Shown here piece after piece: positions 6,301-60,000 of a DNA stretch of 60,000 nucleotides. The stretch's first letter is position 1; the number at the start of each line of letters is the position of its first letter. Made by a program: the position numbers and the translations under genes. The notes beneath the pieces were generated by a model, which searched no databases, was not told the origin of the DNA, and saw nothing but the letters and a program-made list of their open reading frames with translations. The DNA is from Bolinopsis microptera (Eukaryota > Ctenophora > Tentaculata > Lobata > Bolinopsidae), in assembly GCF_026151205.1 (NCBI RefSeq), contig NC_087077.1, positions 1,118,001 to 1,178,000 of the forward strand, in the 5' to 3' direction.

Positions 6301-9300
6301 GTTGAATGGCAACGATGAGTATTGATGACTGCGTTCGCAATTCAGAAAATTATTTTCGTTTGGTTATAGGTGTGGATTCTGATAGGGAGGTGAAGCATAT
6401 TTTTTGACACGTGACAGAAATTAACGAATCAGCTTCCACTATAATTGGCCCGTCAAACCCAGAATCACTGTCACATGTCAAAAAAATATCACCTCCCCAG
6501 TCCCCACCAGAATCCTCACTTACACACATTCACCAGGTAGCGACATCTGTGTTACATCTGCACAGACTGACTGAACTAGTACTTCTCTGCTCAAGAAGCT
6601 CACACTCCCTACTCAATATGATGCAGGTAAAACATTTCCTTGTGTTTAAAAACTTTGTTTTTTCCTGAGGCTACATTTTTAGGAACAAATATAGGATGGT
6701 TAACAAACTGCCAATACAACGCAATGCCGTGTGTGTGTGAAATAACATGCCACTATTTAGTTCTATTAAACAGGTGTGGTCGATAGTATCGACTCACTTT
6801 ACAGAAGCAGCCTGTCATGCAGATAGAACCATCAGTAAGCTCGCCATCACCAGCTACCACCAGATCCTTACTGAAGTTATGAGAAAACGGGTTAGTTCAG
6901 TGGATACCAGTTGTATGTAAAGTCTTTTGTTTGAGTTCTAAGCCTTTTAGGAATTATGTTTTCATCTTTGTGAAGATTTTGTGGAAATATAAAGGATTTT
7001 ATATTACATTTTGATAAAGATTTAGTCGTTATTTCAAACCAGCACGGAGTACACCATCCAAATATTTCAAATATCTGTAATATTTCAGGTTGAGTTGCCA
7101 CACTTTTCCTTCCAATATCTGTAATATTTCAAATATCTGTAATATTTCAGGTTGAGTTGCCACACTTTTCCTTCAATGAGACGCTGTTGAAACCTATGGA
7201 GGATATGTTGAGTCTGGGGCTCTGTGACATGGACACTCAGGACCAGGTAATACTTCCCATTTGAACAATTAACATTCCTTTAAAACATGGAAACATTCTT
7301 TTAAAACATTGAAACATCCCTTTAAACTGTTAAACAGTTATTCAAACATCTCTCTCCACAATCTCCAAATTTCGCAACTTTCTTGCGTTTTGCAAGTTAC
7401 ACAATTTTTAAAAACGTTATGTAGTTATACAGGAATCATAATACCAAATGTGGTAATGCTGCCCAGTGCACATTATTATTCAGCAGTGAATTGCTATAAA
7501 TGGGTCGTCATAATATAATAATGATTATGATAAATATCAAATTTATATTAAATTGCTCCGACCTCGACCTCCAACCTAATTCAAAGTTATTTGAGAAATA
7601 AGGATTACTTAAATAGTTACTGTACAACGCCTTCGTTTTATTCTAAAGTTATATGATTGAAATGTATTGCAACATGAATGATGACGATAAGGCGATTAGT
7701 AACATTATTAACAAGGGAACGTCATGAGTCATAACCAAGGTTGTCACATGACACAGGGTTGTCACGATGAATGGGTTTGATTTTAATGAATGTTCTTTAA
7801 CAGACATATTATTACGAATGTGCTGAGTCAGGTTTCATTACCAACAGAAAGCTTAATTCTCACTCTCGTTGACCGTTGTCCTGTATAGTGTATATGGACA
7901 CGTTCATTGAAGTTTGAGGATATTGGTAAATATTAGTGACCCTACTAAATGGCACGATGATGTAAAATGTGTCACACTATAAAACTATATAAACCCTCAA
8001 TGGTTAGGATAATCGTTTCATCCTCTAGATAAACTTTGTCGCATAACGATATCTTTATCAGACGATAAGATATCGCTTAAATGCGGCCGGCAGTGAGTTG
8101 TAAACTTTGTCACACTATAAAAATGTGACAGAGTTTATATGGACCCCTTGTTGCCGTGTTTGACCAAATTTTCGAATTTCAAATTTATAGGATAGTTGCA
8201 TATGACTATTATCTACATATTTAGCGACTTTTTTCGTTAAATGGTAGCACCATGTAAACTCCGTCACACATTTAAGAAATTTATATGAGGGATGTTTATG
8301 CATCCTGACAAGAAATGCCGAATAGTCTAGCATTATTTTGTGAGCTGAATGTGTTTGGAATTGTTCACATATTTCATTGTTATAGGCAAATACAAATACA
8401 GAAGGCAGAAATAGGTAAATTTAGTCACATAAATTTGTATGATATCTCAACATGTGTGAAATTGAGTAAATATTAGTATACCAACTTAAACACCCTATAT
8501 TACGTACTATGGATCAATTAACAATATTTCAACCATACGCCGGTCATATAAATTATTATATGGCAGTGATATGTTAACATTGGCAAAATTTCAACACCTG
8601 AACAGGGTAAAAATTTGTAAATTTCGTCACAAAAAAAATATTATAACTTTATTTGCTCCGTGTTGGCAAAATAACTAATTTATCGACATAGTGATGGTGA
8701 TAAAGTAACATTATATACTAATTGAGGTATGATTCTTCAAAATAGGGGCAAGAAATGTAAATTTCGTCACATCAGCCATAGCATTAGTTAGATAGATTTT
8801 CTTTCATATCAACTGCCCTTATTATAGCTAGAATGGATTTATACAGGAAATATAGAAACCCATGCCCATTTTTCATCACATTGAAATTATACTGTTGGTC
8901 TGTTGGGGCAGGAAAAGTAAATTTCGTCACATTTCGGTAAATTAGTGATATCAAACTCAGCATTGTTAAACTTGGGTTCTGATCTGCTGAAAAATAACCA
9001 ACCAATAATTCCTGGAAGAAAATTGAATTTTAACTGAGGTATGGTTCTTTAAAATAGGGGCAAGAAATGTAAATTTCGTCACATACGTAATTTTAAAATT
9101 TAGATAGATTTTATTTCCTACCAATAGTCCTTATTATAGTCGGAATGGATTTATACAAGAAATGTAGAAACCCATGCCAATTTTTCATCACATTGAAACT
9201 ATACTGTTGGGGCAGGAAAAGTGAATTTCGTCACATTTCAATAACTTAGTAAAATTAAACTCAGCATTGTTAAACTTGAGTTCTAATTTGCTGAACAATA

Positions 9301-12300
9301 ACCAACCAATAATTCCTGGAAGAAAATTGAATTTTAACCGAGGTATGGTTCTTCAAAATAGGGGCAAGAAATGTAAATTTTGTCACATACGTCATTTTAA
9401 AATTTAGATAGATTTTCTTTCATATCAATAGTCCTTATTATAGTTAGAATGGATTTATACATGCCAATTTTTCATCACATTGAAATTATACTGTTGGGGC
9501 AGGAAAAGTAAATTTCGTCACATTTCAGTAACTTAGTAAAATTAAACTCAGCATTGTTAAACTTGAGTTCTATTTTGCTAAACAATAACCAACCAATAAT
9601 TCCTGGAAGAACATTGAATTCTAACCGAGGTATGGTTCTTCAAAATAGGGTCAAGAAATGTAAATTTCGTCACATACGAGTACGTCATTGTAAAATTTAG
9701 ATACAATTTCTTTCACGTGAACAGTCCTAATTACAGTCCGAAATGATTAATACAGAGATACAGGAAATATAAAAACACCTGCCCATTTTATAATGTATGT
9801 ATAACAATTGTAATATGTTAATCACAGACTATTTCATTCTATAATCATTGCTTCCAAATTTAACCTATTTATGATGTCTTATCATTTTGTGACGATGTTT
9901 ACATCAACTGCCCTATACTTGAATCAACTGTATCCGTGTATCGTCCTTATATAGAGTTTTCCCGCAAAATTTAACTTATTTACGATGTCGTATCATTTTG
10001 TGACGATGTTTACATCAACTGCCCTATACTTGAATCAACTGTATCCGTGTATCGTCCTTAGATAGAGTTTTCCCGCAAAATGTAACCTATTTACGATGTC
10101 GTATCATTTTGTGACGATGTTTACAACAACTGCCCTATACTTGAATAAACTGTATCCGTGTATCGTCCTTATATAGATTTTCCCCGCAAAATGTAACCTA
10201 TTTACGATGTCGTATCATTTTGTGACGATGTTTACATCAACTGCCCTAGTATACTTGAATCAACTGTATCCGTGTATCGTCCTTATATAGAGTTTTCCCG
10301 CCTTCCACACCAAAATCAGATATAAATGATTTCGGAAATTCACCCAGAATTTCAAATTCCATATAATGTGACAGAATTTACATCATTTCCCAATAACCAA
10401 GTGCATGTATTAGCTAACTTTTCAAAACAACATATTTTAGGGCTATGATTGGCAGAAGAACCATCAAATAATGAGTTGAAAGGGTTTTAAGGACACCTCA
10501 CAGTAGAAAAGAGGTCTCGTATTCTGAGTGTGACAAAGTTTACGAAATATTGCCTTAAAGCCGTTCGATCCGTGCCCTTTAACCAATGTTGTATCATAAT
10601 TGTTAGATTGACCTAATCTACTATATTTCAGACCAAGGAATGATAATTGGGCAGCTATGGTAAACAATGTCACAAAAATGTGACATTTTTTACATTATAG
10701 TGCCTAAAAGCAATACATTTTATTTCTGAGCAGTGCATATGGGAGTATGGGTCACGTGGCTAATGTTCAGAACTTATGAACACGCTAGATTAATAGATGC
10801 TAAAATTAAGCCACTATCGTCGAAAACGCTATTTTAGAAATTTACCAATATCCTCAAACTTCAATGAACGTGTCCATATACGCAAACTGTTTTCCACATC
10901 ACATTAAGAGTAAAACCACATTAAATGCATTGTATGATTTCACGCCTCACGTTTCAAAACTGTGCTAAATCACTTTGCAAAGTTGCGTGTGGAATCACAA
11001 TAGTGGAATAGAAAACTGCAAAATGTATTAACTTTACACGGGAATTTGGAAACATTCCAGAAAATTATTTAGCTCGGTGTTACTGTAATTAAAACAATAA
11101 AAAAGATAGAAAGTATCTTTTAAACTCATCCATTAGTCTAACTGTTTCAAAATTCCACGTTTAAATTATAAATTCTTTCAAAATGTTTAAATTCTAATTG
11201 TTTCAGATTGTGAGCTGCCTGTGCGAGTTAGCTGAAGCTAATGCTCGGGAACTGAAGAGTGGGTGGAAAGCTCTCTTTAGATCACTCCGGAGTGTCAAGG
11301 TAACCCTATTTAAGTATTTAACTAGGGGGATTTAACTTATTTAAGTATTTAACTAGGGGGATTTACATTTTAACACAGTTGGTCAATATCCAAAGGGACG
11401 CGTTTAGATATTTAGATATTTAGGTTTTACTTTAATATTATCGAGAGCCAATTTAATGGTATGAAAGTCAAGTCTGGTATTACAAATTCCATTCTCTAAG
11501 ACGTTGGACAAGTTTAAATTCCTTTATAACTGAACTCTAACCGAAGATACCCCGTTATCCAGGTGCCGGTATCTAACGAAGAAGACACATGGACCACACC
11601 CGTGTTCGAAGTGGTGTCTGTGGTGCTGGAGCGCGATGATGTGTTCATATTCGCTGATGCCATTATCGACTGTGTTCTGTGTCTACAGAAGTTTATCTGT
11701 AGTGGCTCCGTTCAGCAGAGCAAGGACACTGTTTATCTGGTCAGTTTTAGACTAAAATAACTACTTTTAACATTGTGGCTGTTTTATCGCGCCAGGTAGC
11801 GCAGTTGGTTAGAAAACCAGCTTTGCAATCGTGAGGTTGCTTTGTAATCGTGAGGTTGCGAGTTCGAATCCCGCTGTCTGCCTGGTCGTGGGGTGAGCGT
11901 CGTTAACGTTCAGCTAAGGATCATGAGTGGTCTATGCAGCCCCCCGGTCTACTCAGCCGAATTCTCGAGAAATCGGGTGTGAGGTTAAAAGAGGAGCTGC
12001 CCACACACTACCTTAACCGGCTGCCAGTAATTGGCTGGTTACACTTGTATAACAATGTGACTGTTGGAATACTCCGAAGTAAAATAAGTGTGTAGATTTT
12101 TAAAATCTACTAGATGATCTAGTGAATTTTGAGCTGTTGAGAACCACGCCAATCGGGAACCTCTCATTCCGGGCTCCCGCCGCGCAGGTATCACATCATA
12201 TTGCCCAACCAGAAAACAACAATTTCAAAGTTTGGCACCGGTAGTCTCTTCTGTCTCTTAATAAGTTTCACGTCTTTGTGTTTTCAGTCTCGACTTTACT

Positions 12301-18300: not shown

Positions 18301-21300
18301 CCCTTCAGTGACCTGGTTATAGGGCTCCTGGCTCACTCGCTTCTTGTTCAGACTATTAATGATCTGTTTGTCGGGGACAAGCATCCCACAACTAAATCTA
18401 CTACTGGCTTTTCTGAGCTGCTTAAAGTTCTGACTCCTCAGGTTGGTGGAACAAACATGGTTTTTATACCCTTTTTTGTTTGTTTCACATCAAAAACTTA
18501 TGCCATCATTATGGAGTTATCATATTTTGAGCTAAACAAAGAATTGTGAGTTGTGACACAATTTGCTTATTTTTGATAAATTTGATTTGCCTAACACTCA
18601 CTTTACTCATAAAATGTTTGTTTTATTTAACTGTTGTATTTAACAGACGATGTCGATGCTGTTGGACGCAGTGTGGGACAGCTATGAAGTGTGTATCGCC
18701 TTTAACCACAGACCTGGGCTAAGGTGAGGGTAGTTTTATGTGTATAATATGTGTATAATATGTATATAATATGTGTATAATATGTGTATAATATGTGTAT
18801 AATATGTGTATAATATGTGTATAATATGTGTATAATATGTGTATAATATGTGTACAATATGTGTATAATATGTGTATAATATGAGTATAATATGTGTATA
18901 TGTTTATAATATGTGTATAATATGTATATAATATGTGTATAATATGTGTATAATATGTGTATAATATGTATATAATATGTGTATAATATGTGTATAATAT
19001 GTGTATAATATGTGTATAATATGTGTATAATATGAGTATAATATGTGTATATGTTTATAATATGTGTATAATATGTGTATAATATGAGTATAATATGTGT
19101 ATAATATGTGTACAATATGTGTATAATATGTGTATAATATGTGTATAATATGTGTATAATATGTGTATAATATGTGTACAATATGTGTATAATATGTGTA
19201 TAATATGTGTATAATATGTGTATAATATGTGTACAATATGTGTATAATATGTGTATAATATGTGTACAATATGTGTATAATATGTGTATAATATGTGTAT
19301 AATATGTGTACAATATGTGTATAATATGTGTATAATATGTGTATAATATGTGTACAATATGTGTATAATATGTGTATAATATGTGTATAATATGTGTATA
19401 ATATGTGTATAATATGTGAATAATATGTGTATAATATGTGTATAATATGTGTATAATATGTGTATAATATGTGTACAATATGTGTATAATATGTGTATAA
19501 TATTACTAACATTACACGACACACGTCTATACTCCTATCAACCACATAATATCATGTAACAAACGTTATAATAGGGTTCACATTATAACAAATATTATTG
19601 GTTAACATCTACAACAATGCGTTAATGAAAGTTGACGTATTCTCCCAAAATTCTAAACCTCATGACTCTTCAAGCTTTCAAGAACAATATTCAAAGGACC
19701 TCGTTACTGGCGTCGCCCCCCCCCCCCCCGCCCCCCCCCCCACGTTGCTCTCTCTGGCGTTACTGGCACGTTACATAGTACACTCACGTTGCTCATTACA
19801 ATTTACTGGCATCCCCCCACATTGTATACTCACTGTGTACTGTGGCTGGTTTATACACTATATTATGTAGTGTCTTTAGTGATAATAGTACACTCCGCCC
19901 CGCCCTTTACCAGAGTGTTACTACAAATCAGGGTACAGGTCATAGGTCCAGAGGAGAGAGGGAGACTTCAACATTAATCGATCTTAGAGGGGCCCTAATA
20001 AGCTAATACCTCATTATATTGATATAACGATCTGAGTGTTGTCACAAACTGACAAACTGACAAACTGACAAACTGACAAACTGACAGGTACACGTTTCCA
20101 GGTACCTGATACAGAAGGTGGGGTGTCTGAACGATTACACACCGGGTCTGGTGAAGCAAGCACAGAAGAGTTACATCACGTATATTAACACTATTCTTTA
20201 TCTGAGGATTAACGTAAAGGAGCAGGTAAAAATAGTTATTTCAGCTTTTTATATACCTCTCTACCAGAATCCACATCTATTAGATTCTGGTAGGGAGGTG
20301 AGGAACATGTTTATTAGATGTGTATTCTGGTAGGGAGGTGAGGAGCATGTTTATTAGATGTGTATTCTGGTAGGGAGGTGAGGAGCATGTTTATTAGATG
20401 TGGATTCTGGTAGGGAGCTGGTGAGGAGCATGTTTATTAGATGTGGATTCTGGTAGGGAGCTGGTGAGGAGCATGTTTTTTAAGCGTGACAGCGATTAAT
20501 CAGCTTCCACTATTGAGCAATCAAACCCCAGAATCACCGTCACGTGGCAAACAACAATTCTTCACCCCTGTAAAATTTATCAGTAAATTCTAATATAATC
20601 TGTCAGTGCTGGTGTTTGAACTGCATCTATATCGTCACTGTGCGTCAGTAGGCATTGCACAAGAAATCGCAATCCCTTAATATTAACTTACTCCTTTAGA
20701 AGCGGGAGAAAGAGGAGGAGGAGGGAGAAGGAGCTGAAAGGAGCGAGGAAGGAGGAGCACCGAAGACGATTCAGAAGAGTAGTGGTAATTACAGTCATGC
20801 TGGTCTCAGCTTAGAAAGGTTCGTTGCTTGCTTCTTTACTCTTGGCTTTAAAAAGTTAATGCCTGTTTTGTATGTCTGATATACTCTAGAGATTAACGTG
20901 ACATGTTAGGTTCACAAGGATTTTTTGAGAATTTTTTTCAATTCCTTTTAATACTTTGATTTTGATTGATTTAATTAGTTAATTATTAATAAAGTACTGA
21001 ACATTCCACCTCCTCCAGTATTGATACCTCGTGGGAGGGAATCCTGGACACGTGTCTAAAAGAAGCTAGTTGTCAGCTGTGCGCGGCTTACTCTCTTATG
21101 TACAGTACTCAGGGTCAAAGTAGCATTCTCAAACACAAACCTGTTCTTAACAAGAAGGTCAGCTTTAATTATTTACAAATAATATAATTACTAATAATTC
21201 TGACCTAGCTCACATTTGACTAAGATTTTAGGGAACATTCGGATATTTGTAACTTTTAAAATGTTTCAAAATGTTTATGTCCATACCAAATCTTCCTGTG

Positions 21301-44748: not shown

Positions 44749-47700
44749 GTGACACAAGCATCAGCGAAAACTGGTGTGACGAAGCAGACGTTAAAGCAGA
44801 AAGAGACAGTTATGAGTTCAAAGTTTTCTTCTACTTCCTTACTGAGCCTAGCTTCACTGAATGCAAAAGGGCTCTCTAAGACGGAGAAACAGGAAGAACT
44901 CGGAACGGATTGTTTTGAATATAGTGTTGATATCTTGTGCGTTCAAGAGACAAAAGTCAAAAATCATTCCACTAGATATCTCAGAAACAATTACAAATTG
45001 ATCATGATGGAGCAAAATCAAGGACGACATGGTGGACTAGGTTTCATCATAAGTCCTAGATTACTACCTTATGTCACAGACTATCAGTATACCTCAGACC
45101 GGGTTTCCTATCTTAATGTCGTCATTCCTTCTAATCTCTCATCCCATCCTAAAAATATCAGAATTGTTAACGGTTATGGCCCGACTAATCCTAAAGCAGA
45201 AGGAAACCCTGCCCTTCTTAGAAAGTTCTACAGAGAACTCACCCATGCTATTTCAGTTCCTGCATCTCATGAATTGTTTGTTTGTGGCGATCTCAACAGT
45301 AAGTTAGGAACCTTATCTCCTTTGGACTATCAGTATGGTGTAACAGAGTATATGGGCAAGTTTGGAATGGGTACAAGGAACTTCAATGGTGAACATTTAT
45401 TAAACTTCATGTGCTTAAACAAACTGTTTGCTACCAATACCTATTTTGATCATCCTTGTAGACATCGAACTACTTTCTCTATGTGTATTTCTGCCAAAGG
45501 TCGCCCTAAAGGCAGCAAACTTACTCGTCCAGTCTTTGCCCAATTAGATTATATTCTGTGCAGAACACGCAGCAGATTCATGTTCCAAGATTGTAGATCA
45601 TATGGCGGTCTTACTACTAACTCAGACCACAGACTCGTTGCTTGTAAGATCAAACTAGCCCCCTACTACAAAATCTTTCCTACAAAAAAGATAAGTTCAG
45701 TAGTTAAGAGATACAACAATTCCCTGCTCACCACTGACCTTCCCACCAAAGTCAAATACCAACTTTCAGTCGAACAGAAAGTCAACAACTCTCAGGTAAC
45801 ATCAAACCCTAATGATGATCTCACTAACCTGATGGATGTCCTCAAAACAACTGCTGATGAAGTAATCGGGACCCTACCACGCTCCAGAAACCGTAACTTC
45901 AGTAGTGACTCTACTGTTGAAGCCCTTGTAAAAGAGAGACAAACCCTGCAAGCTGCACTTAACTGTAACAACCAAGCTGCCGACAGAACTCAAGTCCGTA
46001 CAAGGATCAACAGGTTACAGAAAGACATCCGTAAGCATCTCAAGAACCTTGCTGACACACGTGCCGATAACATCGCTCGAACCATCATGTCAACAGATGA
46101 CACAAGGCAGATGTTTGAAGCTGTGCGTACTCTAGCTGACACTAAGCCCAAATCTACTATCAGTGTCCACAATGAAGAAGGTAACTTTGTTGCCACAGAT
46201 GCTGGTAAAGCTCAAGTGATCAGAGACTACTACGAAAAGCAGTTCACGTGTGAGGATGAACCACTTCAAGCATTTATAGGGGATGGACGCTGCCTAGACA
46301 TACCCATCACATGTGATGAAGTAAAGAAAGCCGCCCAATCTCTCAAGAACAACAAAGCCACTGGTCCAGATAAAGTCTACAACGAGTGGTTGAAAAATGC
46401 TGGTACAAAATTCTGGTCAAAATATGCCGAGATCATCAATAACGCATTGGAGACCAATTCATTTCCTGATGTTATAGGTGAAGCCATCATCACCCCCTTG
46501 CCGAAACCTCGCAAACCAGCCGGTCCTGTCACTAGTCTACGACCTCTATGTCTATCAAATGGTGCTCGTAAGATATTATCCATGATTGTACTGAAGAGAA
46601 TCGAAGACAAAGTTGATGCTTTCACTGGTAGCACGCAGGCGGGGTACAAACATGGTAGGAGTTGTGGTGATCTAGTGTGGGCTGAGCGGATGTTGATATC
46701 GGTTGTCACGCGTAAACACTTCCAGTATCACAAGATGGGCATAGATATGTCTCGAGCATTTGACACAATCAAACGCCAGACAATACTTGACCTTCTTGTC
46801 AAAGCTGGATGCACAGACGACGACCTCAGGCTAGTAAGACTCCTCTTAACCAACACCATGCTCAAGGTCAGAGTGGAAGGAGAACTATCTGCTGTATTCG
46901 AGAGTCTTCTTGGATCCTTTCAAGGTGACAGTCTCTCCGGCAAGCTTTTCACTCTTGTCCTTGCAGGAGCTCTTATAGAACTACGCCATCGACTAGCAGA
47001 ATCTCCCCCACACATACCCAATCCCCCTGTTTCAAAAGAAGGTATGCCACTGGAGTCAGCGTATTCAGATGATTGTAACTTCATGAACGTGGAAAAAGAA
47101 TCCTTAGAAGCTATCCTACCAATAGCCAAGGAAGTCTTCAAGGAGTTTAACCTGTTCATTAACACAGAGAAAACAGAATTTACCCATGTTTTCCTCGCTC
47201 CTGTTGGAGAAACAATCCCTGGTCGTGATGATACCATGTTACGTGGAAATGAAGATTGGCGGAAGAGTAAGATTCTTGGGTCATTGTTGTGTAGTGAAAG
47301 TGATATAGCTGCTCGATGCATTGCTGGGAACAATGCCTTCTATAAGTTCACCAAGATCTGGTCTCAGCAGAATATCTCCGTTACCAGAAAGATAGCAGTA
47401 TACGAAGCCCAAATTGTATCAATCATCATGTACAATTGCAGTAGTTGGTGTCCTACTGCAAAGTCACTAGAAAAACTAGACATTTGCCATAGAAAACACC
47501 TTAGATCATTACTGAACATTTATTGGCCTCATGGAACAATATCTAATGCAAACTTATACCTAAGATGTAACTCAGTAAAGCTATCAGATCGTGTCCCTAA
47601 AGCAAGGTGGAAGCTCCTAGGTCATATCTTGCGTAGTGCTGATGACTCCCCCGCTGCATTAGCGTTAAAGTTTGCTGTCACAACAAACTGTAAAGGGCGC

Positions 47701-47841
47701 GTTGGTGCGCATCGTAAGAATTTGTTCAAGATTATTGTGAATGATTTGACCCGTAGAGGTTTAAAACTTAACTCTTTGAATGATCTTAATAAGCTTAAGA
47801 TATTAGCTGATGATAGAGTTGCTTGGAGAAACAAATTTTAA
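44749..47841 (+). CDS. Intact LINE polyprotein: AP endonuclease plus reverse transcriptase
   Basis: A 1030-codon frame without interruption. An APE-type endonuclease fills about residues 25-310: SLASLNAKGLS, DILCVQETK (catalytic Glu), VNGYGPTNPK, CGDLNSKLG, QLDYILCR and TTNSDHRLVACKI (the terminal SDH). The RT spans about 510-800: NNKATGPDKVYNEW, ITPLPKPRK, TGSTQAGYKHGRSC, GIDMSRAFDTI with the first Asp near 665, LLGSFQGDSLSGKLF and AYSDDCNF with Tyr 772. A typical LINE C-terminal tail (RWKLLGHILR) follows. All catalytic motifs are present, so it could be active in target-primed reverse transcription. It lies between the inverted repeats at 43987 and 53434. No ORF1 precedes it. The clade (RTE/L2/CR1-like) cannot be fixed by eye. 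The exact start is uncertain; Met at 44812 is also possible. Confidence 0.93.
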   Translation: MTQASAKTGVTKQTLKQKETVMSSKFSSTSLLSLASLNAKGLSKTEKQEELGTDCFEYSVDILCVQETKVKNHSTRYLRNNYKLIMMEQNQGRHGGLGFIISPRLLPYVTDYQYTSDRVSYLNVVIPSNLSSHPKNIRIVNGYGPTNPKAEGNPALLRKFYRELTHAISVPASHELFVCGDLNSKLGTLSPLDYQYGVTEYMGKFGMGTRNFNGEHLLNFMCLNKLFATNTYFDHPCRHRTTFSMCISAKGRPKGSKLTRPVFAQLDYILCRTRSRFMFQDCRSYGGLTTNSDHRLVACKIKLAPYYKIFPTKKISSVVKRYNNSLLTTDLPTKVKYQLSVEQKVNNSQVTSNPNDDLTNLMDVLKTTADEVIGTLPRSRNRNFSSDSTVEALVKERQTLQAALNCNNQAADRTQVRTRINRLQKDIRKHLKNLADTRADNIARTIMSTDDTRQMFEAVRTLADTKPKSTISVHNEEGNFVATDAGKAQVIRDYYEKQFTCEDEPLQAFIGDGRCLDIPITCDEVKKAAQSLKNNKATGPDKVYNEWLKNAGTKFWSKYAEIINNALETNSFPDVIGEAIITPLPKPRKPAGPVTSLRPLCLSNGARKILSMIVLKRIEDKVDAFTGSTQAGYKHGRSCGDLVWAERMLISVVTRKHFQYHKMGIDMSRAFDTIKRQTILDLLVKAGCTDDDLRLVRLLLTNTMLKVRVEGELSAVFESLLGSFQGDSLSGKLFTLVLAGALIELRHRLAESPPHIPNPPVSKEGMPLESAYSDDCNFMNVEKESLEAILPIAKEVFKEFNLFINTEKTEFTHVFLAPVGETIPGRDDTMLRGNEDWRKSKILGSLLCSESDIAARCIAGNNAFYKFTKIWSQQNISVTRKIAVYEAQIVSIIMYNCSSWCPTAKSLEKLDICHRKHLRSLLNIYWPHGTISNANLYLRCNSVKLSDRVPKARWKLLGHILRSADDSPAALALKFAVTTNCKGRVGAHRKNLFKIIVNDLTRRGLKLNSLNDLNKLKILADDRVAWRNKF

Positions 47842-53434: not shown

Positions 53435-53649
53435 TAGTGACTAGATCATCATGTGACAACATTTACACGTTTTAAGGATGGTTCTGGCGGTAAATGTAAA
53501 ACCCTAACTAAACACTCTATTGAGTCTATTCTGCTTAGTTATACGTTCACTACAACTAAGCTATTCTGACCACAACTTACGGTACGGTTATGTATTATAT
53601 AAAACCCCGGCAGGTTCCCACTAATGAGATTTTCTGATCGCTTCAGAGT

Positions 53650-58354: not shown

Positions 58355-59245
58355 CATTATCGGTCACAGTACCGTTCACAGTACCGGTCATAGTACCGTT
58401 CACAGTACCGTTCACATTACCGGTCATATTACCGTTCACGGTAGACACGTTATTTTTGAATTGATGTTATTAGCCCATTTAATTTTAGAAAATTATTTAA
58501 GTATTGAATCTGCATTATCATCAACAATCAATATTCGAGACAAAGTGAAACAATGGAATACCGGGTCCCGAAATTCAAAATTGTAGTCAGTGTTTGGTGT
58601 TGTTCTCTTTTTTTGTTTTTTGGAAGGACATGAACAATAACAATAATGAATTTTTAAATCTCGTCACAACTATTTCTCGCAAAACCCTGCACATTGTTAA
58701 CGGTACCGTTCACAGTACCGTTCACAGTACTGGTCACAGTACCGTTCACAGTACTGTTCACAGTACTGGTAACAGTACCGTTCACAGTACTGGTCACAGT
58801 ACCGTTCACAGTACCGTTCACAGTACCGTTCACAGTACCGTTCACAGTACTGGTCACAGTACCGTTCACAGTACCGTTCACAGTACCGTTCACAGTACCG
58901 TTCACAGTACCGTTCACAGTACCGTTCACAGTACTGGTCACAGTACTGGTCACAGTACCGTTCACAGTACCGTTCACAGTACCGTTCACAGTACTGGTCA
59001 CAGTACCGTTCACAGTACCGGTCACAGTACCGTTCACAGTACCGTTCACAGTACCGTTCACAGTACCGTTCACAGTACCGTTCACAGTACCGGTCACAGT
59101 ACCGGTCACCACAGTACTGGTCACAGTACCGTTCACAGTACCGTTCACAGTACCGTTCAACGTACCGTTCACAGTACCGTTCACAGTACCGTTCACAGTA
59201 CCGGTCACAGTACCGGTCACAGTACCGGTCACAGTACCGTTAACA
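58355..59245. repeat. 12-bp satellite (GTACCGTTCACA) in two blocks
   Basis: A short block at about 58355-58443 and a long block at about 58700-59245 are made of GTACCGTTCACA and GTACTGGTCACA variants, nearly without indels, about 45 copies in the long block. A 255-bp unique segment separates the blocks. Frames of over 180 codons (HSTVHSTV, TVNGTVNG) open on both strands because the period is a multiple of three. Confidence 0.97.
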
Positions 59246-60000
59246 TAGTACAGAGCTCCGGGAGAAGTAGAGGAAATTAAAATATAAAATAAAAAGCTCC
59301 TTCTTTGTTTTATTTGGGCGAGGGCACTCCACGTAGAAAATCTGCTCAATGTGCGCCACTTTTCTTCGCATAGTAGGCTGCAAGAAATTTTGGTCCTTGG
59401 GTCAGCATAGGTAACTCCCAATTTGATCTACTGATTTTCATACTGGATATGCACTGGAATGGTAAATGGTTGAGGTTGTGCTTATCCAGTCTTGAAGAAT
59501 TGTCACTCCTGTCCTTTTTAGTTTTGCTGTTAGCAGCCTGTTTGCAGCTGATCCTCCTGTGAGAGTACCGAAATTAGTAATTCAAATTGTTATTAGTATT
59601 ACCTTAATTTCAAAATTGCATCACAATAAAATCTATAAACGGTACATTTTTCAATTAAGTGGCTGGCCCGATGGAAATCAGGATTCATTATCGTTTCACA
59701 ATTTCTGACTCCAATTCCCATTCCTACCTGGAGGATGTACTGCCGGTCGTACAAGTTGAAGCATCTTGGAATTCAGCTTGGACTTGGAGGGCACATTTCA
59801 CATCTTTTACCTCTTTGTTCATAGATGTCGTTTTCGTCTCAAAATCCTGTAATAAGTTAAATCATTTAAGTTATTGTTAGTGTAAATTAACGTAAAAATC
59901 ATAACTACCTTTACTTATCGGACAATATTTGAACGGACATTAAAATGAGATCCTTCAGCGTCCAATTAATCTCCGTTCAAATTAAGTCCGAGGAGGGTTA
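59246..60000. other. Right edge, no gene recognised
   Basis: Minus-strand frames near 59700-59840 (TTSMNKEVKDVKCALQVQAEF) have a coiled-coil look and could be a LINE ORF1 scrap, but the evidence is too thin for a call. Confidence 0.3.

Follow-up and report, generated by a model that had tools for sequence, protein, structure and literature searches.

Two described groups of DNA transposon bear on the element reported here. CACTA (EnSpm) elements carry subterminal units of 10-20 bp in direct and inverted orientation, and their ends are required in cis for transposition (PMC8978399). Sola2 elements have terminal inverted repeats, AT-rich 4-bp target-site duplications that include ATAT, and non-autonomous derivatives (PMC3627910). 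We analyzed a 60,000-nucleotide stretch of the ctenophore Bolinopsis microptera (NC_087077.1, positions 1,118,001 to 1,178,000; hereafter the window), which contains at 7896-10875 a complete non-autonomous DNA transposon of 2980 bp filled with two opposed arrays of the short motif TGTAAANNNNGTCACA. The best overall explanation, which we consider probable, is a non-autonomous cut-and-paste transposon whose motif arrays dock a protein and whose enzyme is most likely supplied in trans by another element, one that encodes a DUF7869-type transposase.

That the element is a DNA transposon is a near certainty. It is bounded by perfect inverted repeats and an exact 4-bp duplication, and contains no transposase of its own, no start-to-stop frame within it exceeding 73 amino acids (aa). 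The first-pass annotation, made from the letters of the window, had given perfect ends of 41 bp; the inverted ends are real, and their true length is 36 bp, the remainder being the palindromic ATAT duplication plus a chance match outside. G+C content is 33% in the element and 39% in the window, and an Rfam scan of the window returned no match. The features are as follows.

7892..7895, no strand: left target-site duplication ATAT (an exact 4-bp duplication is seen in 28/30 family copies)
7896..7931, + strand: left terminal inverted repeat, 36 bp, perfect, starting GGACACGTTCATTGAAG
7896..10875, + strand: complete non-autonomous transposon of 2980 bp, with no start-to-stop frame longer than 73 aa
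7961..7976, + strand: motif, left half
8099..8139, no strand: left head-to-head motif pair (8099 '+', 8124 '-')
8253..8268, + strand: motif, left half
8414..8429, + strand: motif with 1 mismatch, left half
8616..8631, + strand: motif, left half
8724..9756, + strand: left tandem array, period 304 bp, with 7 '+' motifs (8756, 8916, 9068, 9220, 9372, 9507, 9659)
9856..10301, - strand: right tandem array, period 111 bp, with 4 '-' motifs (9888, 9999, 10110, 10221)
10367..10382, - strand: motif, right half
10529..10544, - strand: motif with 1 mismatch, right half
10659..10694, no strand: right head-to-head motif pair (10659 '+', 10679 '-')
10840..10875, - strand: right terminal inverted repeat, 36 bp, perfect
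10876..10879, no strand: right target-site duplication ATAT

The motif is a near-palindrome of the form TGTRA-N6-TYACA. At one mismatch or fewer it occurs 20 times in the element, against a mean of 0.02 and a maximum of 1 in 100 dinucleotide shuffles, in agreement with the roughly 20 copies first noticed. The 16-bp motif as originally described, allowed up to 3/16 mismatches, gave 18 matches in the element and 20 in the window, where 0.94 were expected in the whole window. When two mismatches are allowed there are 21 motifs, and the flip in orientation at the middle of the element that had been pointed out is evident: 12 '+' and 1 '-' left of 9.7 kb, and 7 '-' and 1 '+' right of 9.88 kb (p = 0.0005 over all 21 copies). 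Both exceptions (8124 '-' and 10659 '+') are halves of head-to-head pairs. The rest of the window holds one exact motif (53452-53467, '-'), whose surroundings have no other similarity to the element, and no such copy is present in 111 kb taken from other loci of this genome in which the family is lacking.

The tandem repeats described earlier, with periods of 304 bp on the left and 111 bp on the right, are real and contain 11 of the 21 motifs, the remaining 10 lying outside them. When the 20 best copies were sorted by flank, at 60% identity across 45 nt to each side of the motif, they formed 13 groups: ten singletons, a quartet and a pair in the 304-bp array, and a quartet in the 111-bp array. 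The copies thus do not all derive from one duplicated block, an origin that the first-pass annotation had named as fatal to its proposal. Some groups are alike just beyond the motif (7961/8099 over 24 nt, 10107/10646 over 32 nt). Counted by flank group, the left half has 7 '+' and 1 '-', and the right half 1 '+' against 4 '-' (Fisher p = 0.03).

The end sequence has 902 matches (450 + 452) at up to 3 mismatches in the 264.7-Mb genome and none in a reversed control, which suggests a copy number of perhaps about 450; a separate DNA similarity search scored the best 40 of 1071 candidates and so gives no copy number. Thirty copies with both ends were read, most of them picked for good matches at both. 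The window copy is L001; L017 and L018, which have common flanks, represent one duplicated locus, and L010 probably appears a second time in the assembly as L034. The pairs L008 with L009 and L010 with L034 have equal flanks, with one or both members on a small contig (C94, C221, C14), and look like second haplotypes not removed from the assembly.

An exact 4-bp duplication flanks 28 of the 30 copies: ATAT in 20, ATAA and TTAA in 2 each, and ATCT, AAGT, ATAC and TTAT in 1 each. The other two are L033, in which the left end is damaged, and L010, which was mis-oriented in the analysis and so was not fairly tested. By eye, six further end pairs likewise agree with a 4-bp duplication. A 2-bp TA duplication was rejected: the base beside GGACACG is variable and has its counterpart on the far side, which makes the duplication 4 bp.

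Motif and polarity are kept across the family. The first-pass annotation had proposed scoring motif orientation against position in other elements with the same termini; in 27 of the 30 copies (L010, L033 and L034 left out; left/right split set at the best fit per copy), 411 of 446 motifs obey the mirror rule, with 248 '+' on the left and 163 '-' on the right. All 35 exceptions belong to close head-to-head pairs. Nor is enrichment peculiar to the window copy, since motifs number 9 to 22 in the 26 longer copies (L010, L033, L034 and L052 left out). L052, only 627 bp long, keeps three. The commonest spacings are 152, 162 and 112 bp (rounded to even numbers).

Compared from one subfamily to another, the motif has a rate of change about one seventh that of other sites. 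When the window copy was compared with L011-L013 (one subfamily), the twelve fixed motif letters differed at 5/588 positions and other sites at 399/6174; 26 shifted controls for this comparison had a mean of 6.5%, and none fell below 2.4%. Against 20 other copies, the window copy differed at 36/3989 motif positions and 1366/42189 elsewhere. Because the motif sites had been chosen on the window copy, pairs excluding it were also compared, and gave 1/180 versus 115/1899, 0/180 versus 106/1899, 1/204 versus 127/2099 and 2/204 versus 131/2134 (motif versus other sites). Slower change of this kind would fit a binding site selected for mobility. Rare differences in 23 copies are also fewer in the motif (14/240 sites versus 393/2561), and selection for mobility alone does not fully account for this.

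The perfect inverted ends, together with a constant 4-bp duplication at dispersed sites, place the family among terminal-inverted-repeat (cut-and-paste) transposons. Within this class several memberships were rejected. CACTA elements share subterminal repeats in both orientations, but have CACTA termini and a 3-bp duplication (PMC8978399), whereas the ends here begin GGACACG and 4 bp are duplicated. The CAC..GTG termini of Chapaev (PMC4079192) are not found. Kolobok duplicates only TTAA (PMC9587614), which accounts for 2/28 copies. Tc1/mariner elements duplicate a 2-bp TA (PMC10045372), and the AAGT and ATCT copies have 4 bp without a central TA. The 2-bp AT duplication within AATT of ISL2EU (PMC4482050) is likewise not what is seen; further literature is cited for reference (PMC12730594). 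The earlier belief that no named family has this layout was right in part: opposed subterminal repeats are known in CACTA, and opposed arrays are not new in principle, while their whole-element extent and strict polarity look new. With Sola2 the family shares, by description only, AT-rich 4-bp duplications, terminal inverted repeats and non-autonomous derivatives. A search of open-licence literature, by its listings, for Sola elements with subterminal or palindromic repeat arrays found nothing.

A Sola-type enzyme was guessed from the AT-rich 4-bp duplication, and DUF7869 (PF25273), which we surmise may be Sola2, was tried. Among open-licence papers none on DUF7869 was found. A profile search of the genome gave 10 matches, and the 3 over the cut-off have frames of 890, 1091 and 718 aa. 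Family B came from the weaker matches, and a protein search with family A led to families D and E (families named here). Family A (L039 and L040, both ends read) has ends GAGGGACC or GTGGGACC and is flanked by ATAT; a 22-bp dyad, TGGTATA-N8-TATACCA, occurs in 9 and 8 copies, nearly all near the ends (shuffle mean 0.3-0.4). Family D (L048) has ends CGTCACCT and family E (L049) ends similar to these, both flanked by ATAT. Motif half-sites are enriched in both 420-bp ends of families A and D (0/200 shuffles), and in D not in the middle. Family B has an asymmetric motif, CTTAAGCACTTTTNTCAGAAAAC. Relative to the frame, the C11 copy (L050, L045, L051) has it 3 times as '-' upstream and 4 times as '+' downstream, and L041 once as '-' upstream and 4 times as '+' downstream (shuffle mean 0). 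An inverted motif pair upstream of the frame is a paired exception, as in the window family, and the duplications are GAGT and AGTA.

These elements resemble the window family in having repeated motifs, a dyad of about 22 bp (A, D) or an asymmetric one (B), on both sides of the gene; A, D and E share its ATAT flanks, and B its orientation flip (across the gene), inverted pair and 4-bp duplication. They differ in encoding a transposase and in the sequences of motif and ends, and in A and D the arrays are mostly confined to about 420 bp at each end, unlike the whole-element array of the window family. Four of the loci (L038, L039, L048, L049) also hold long minisatellite-encoded peptide repeats, different in each family. 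In L039, L048 and L049 these repeats belong to the transposase frame and precede its catalytic part; in L038 they occupy a frame of their own immediately upstream.

A nearer relative was read in one copy, designated family F (L031:7729-9669, 1941 bp), with ends GGACATGTTCA (left) and GGACACGTTCA (right), the duplication ACTT at either side, and an interior in which frames do not exceed 78 aa. Its ends, GGACAYGTTCA, have their first 11 letters in common with the window family and differ thereafter. The motif TGATTC-N4-ATCACA, a pattern picked after its repeats had been seen, occurs in 19 copies at up to 2 mismatches (shuffle mean 0.74, maximum 5) and 8 at up to 1 (shuffle mean 0.06). Like the window family, family F has a 4-bp duplication, is non-coding and has a 16-bp motif with the half-site TCACA in 5-6-5 geometry (TGATT-N6-TCACA versus TGTAA-N6-TCACA); the other half-site, TGATT, is different and polarity is not strict.

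Under the favored explanation each TGTAAANNNNGTCACA site would dock the transposase or an accessory protein, and the two opposed arrays, with a head-to-head pair near each end, would gather protein on both ends and present these symmetrically for synapsis and cutting. Array length would drift by tandem duplication, with motif letters and orientation held by selection for mobility. That the motif is a protein-docking site we consider likely from the sequence comparisons, and the first-pass suggestion of selection for a protein-binding site, for instance a transposase site, gains support from polarity in 27 copies, the 13 flank groups and the slower change between subfamilies. The DUF7869-type partner, tied to the family by analogy of layout, has in our judgment an even chance of being correct, and may be of Sola type. 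It is favored because DUF7869 elements of the same genome have the end-array layout and because family B has both the 4-bp duplication and the orientation flip.

A number of observations weigh against this explanation. No coding copy with window-family ends, and no DUF7869 transposase gene between such ends, occurs among the copies read, so that the autonomous relative that the first pass had proposed to look for was not found there; ten long copies (4.9-8.9 kb, with both ends, or L027) contain other inserts. Of the attributes of DUF7869 (possibly Sola2) elements, the family has the 4-bp duplication and motif arrays at both ends, a layout not known to be exclusive or defining; a transposase gene between the ends was not seen in the copies read, and no homology of end sequence was detected. 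Window-family ends, and the motif at up to 1 mismatch, are absent from DUF7869 loci L038-L051. In comparisons with the ends of A, D and E, 143/500 shuffles scored as high as the window right end (33 to 110/500 for other copies) and 272/500 as high as the left. The same test detects A versus D on the right (0/500) and D versus E on both sides (0/500), but it also misses the left end of family B (292/500), so its failure does not exclude a distant tie. Family A alone is above the Pfam DUF7869 cut-off of 26 bits, with B at 22.6 and D at 19.8; E has no match, being tied to D by 47% identity. Every duplication read in A, D and E is ATAT, and because this sequence is palindromic a length of 4 bp is not proven for them. 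Half-sites are enriched in the middle of family A copy L039 too, and the array of family E is weak (5 matches versus 1.8 in shuffles for the first pattern; half-site counts equalled in 19 and 7 of 200 shuffles). Polarity in family F leans the same way and is not significant (4 '+' and 2 '-' left, 5 '+' and 8 '-' right, p = 0.35). Lastly, five older relatives pooled show no extra conservation of the motif (71/487 versus 648/4603), nor does L017 (15/180 versus 154/1761), and among seven old relatives motif change is above background in L033 and L027 and below it in five. We read the absent conservation in old relatives as decay after mobility was lost.

The same transposon might instead use its motif to recruit a DNA-binding protein of the host, one that acts in transcription, replication timing or silencing. 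Dimeric transcription factors use near-palindromic sites, and the motif is a near-palindrome; the arrays span the whole element rather than only its ends, and the deficit of rare differences in the motif exceeds what mobility selection fully explains. The mirror polarity and the head-to-head pair near each end, however, are defined relative to the transposon ends, and the arrays of A, B, D and F have family-specific letters where one host factor would predict common ones. We regard a host factor as quite unlikely. Still less can be said for the motif copies as functionless debris of tandem duplication: although about half of them (11/21) lie in tandem arrays and some others have short common flanks, the 13 flank groups and the slower change than at other sites largely refute this, and we rate it as very improbable.

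It is also conceivable that the family is part of a different superfamily that makes 4-bp duplications and that it resembles DUF7869 elements by convergence. The missing coding partner and the lack of end-sequence similarity speak for this, as do the subterminal arrays that CACTA has as well. Kolobok and Chapaev are nevertheless poor candidates on the features given above (TTAA in only 2/28 copies; ends unlike CAC..GTG), and family B, with a DUF7869-related frame, combines the orientation flip with a 4-bp duplication. We consider convergence doubtful, though a substantial contender.

Candidates for a coding copy were rejected on their content. The long end pairs L005, L006 and L007 contain reverse transcriptase frames (Pfam), as do L010 and L033. 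L037 holds an insert with inverted ends of its own; this insertion (L037:580-4417) has ends of about 650 bp and fragments that look Academ-like (no Pfam match). Insert DNA in L034, L035 and L036 is of no recognized type. In the older relatives L008, L009, L010, L032, L033 and L034 no transposase of their own was recognized, shorter frames being judged by eye only; L008 has a piece that looks mariner-like by eye, with no Pfam match. A Harbinger/ISL2EU partner was sought through PF13359, which has 122 genome matches, and the sole one near a listed end belongs to a separate element inserted in L027. A 138-aa frame in L027 was rejected as a partner exon, since it belongs to a dispersed family of its own (152 matches), and neither window-family ends nor motifs surround this gene at three of its loci (L029-L031). 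Its label as open reading frame 1 of a long interspersed nuclear element (LINE) is by eye only, with no Pfam match. L031 also holds family F, about 6 kb from the 138-aa gene.

Some further features were observed in passing. The Harbinger-type element (L027:1751-7021, and L028) has long inverted repeats (about 1.5 kb for the L027 element), and its DDE_Tnp_4 domain is split in two by about 0.5 kb that may be an intron; several similar split pairs occur among the PF13359 matches. Elsewhere in the window, 44749-47841 is an uninterrupted frame of 1030 aa with endonuclease and reverse transcriptase domains (Pfam), apparently an intact LINE, and long tandem repeats open in several frames lie at 18702-19545 and 58594-59421.

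A broader proposal, which we offer tentatively and think unlikely as it stands, is that DUF7869-type transposons and their relatives distinguish "inside" from "outside" through a pair of opposed arrays built from a docking site private to each family, the letters changing from family to family and the geometry being kept, and that non-autonomous members spread the arrays along their full length and so outcompete coding copies in the contest for the enzyme. It is given this much weight because family F has its ends and one half-site in common with the window family. For the window family itself, hundreds of natural variants with differing array length and the same orientation make the role of number, spacing and polarity of putative transposase sites directly testable, and the layout offers a possible way of linking non-coding elements with DUF7869 transposons.

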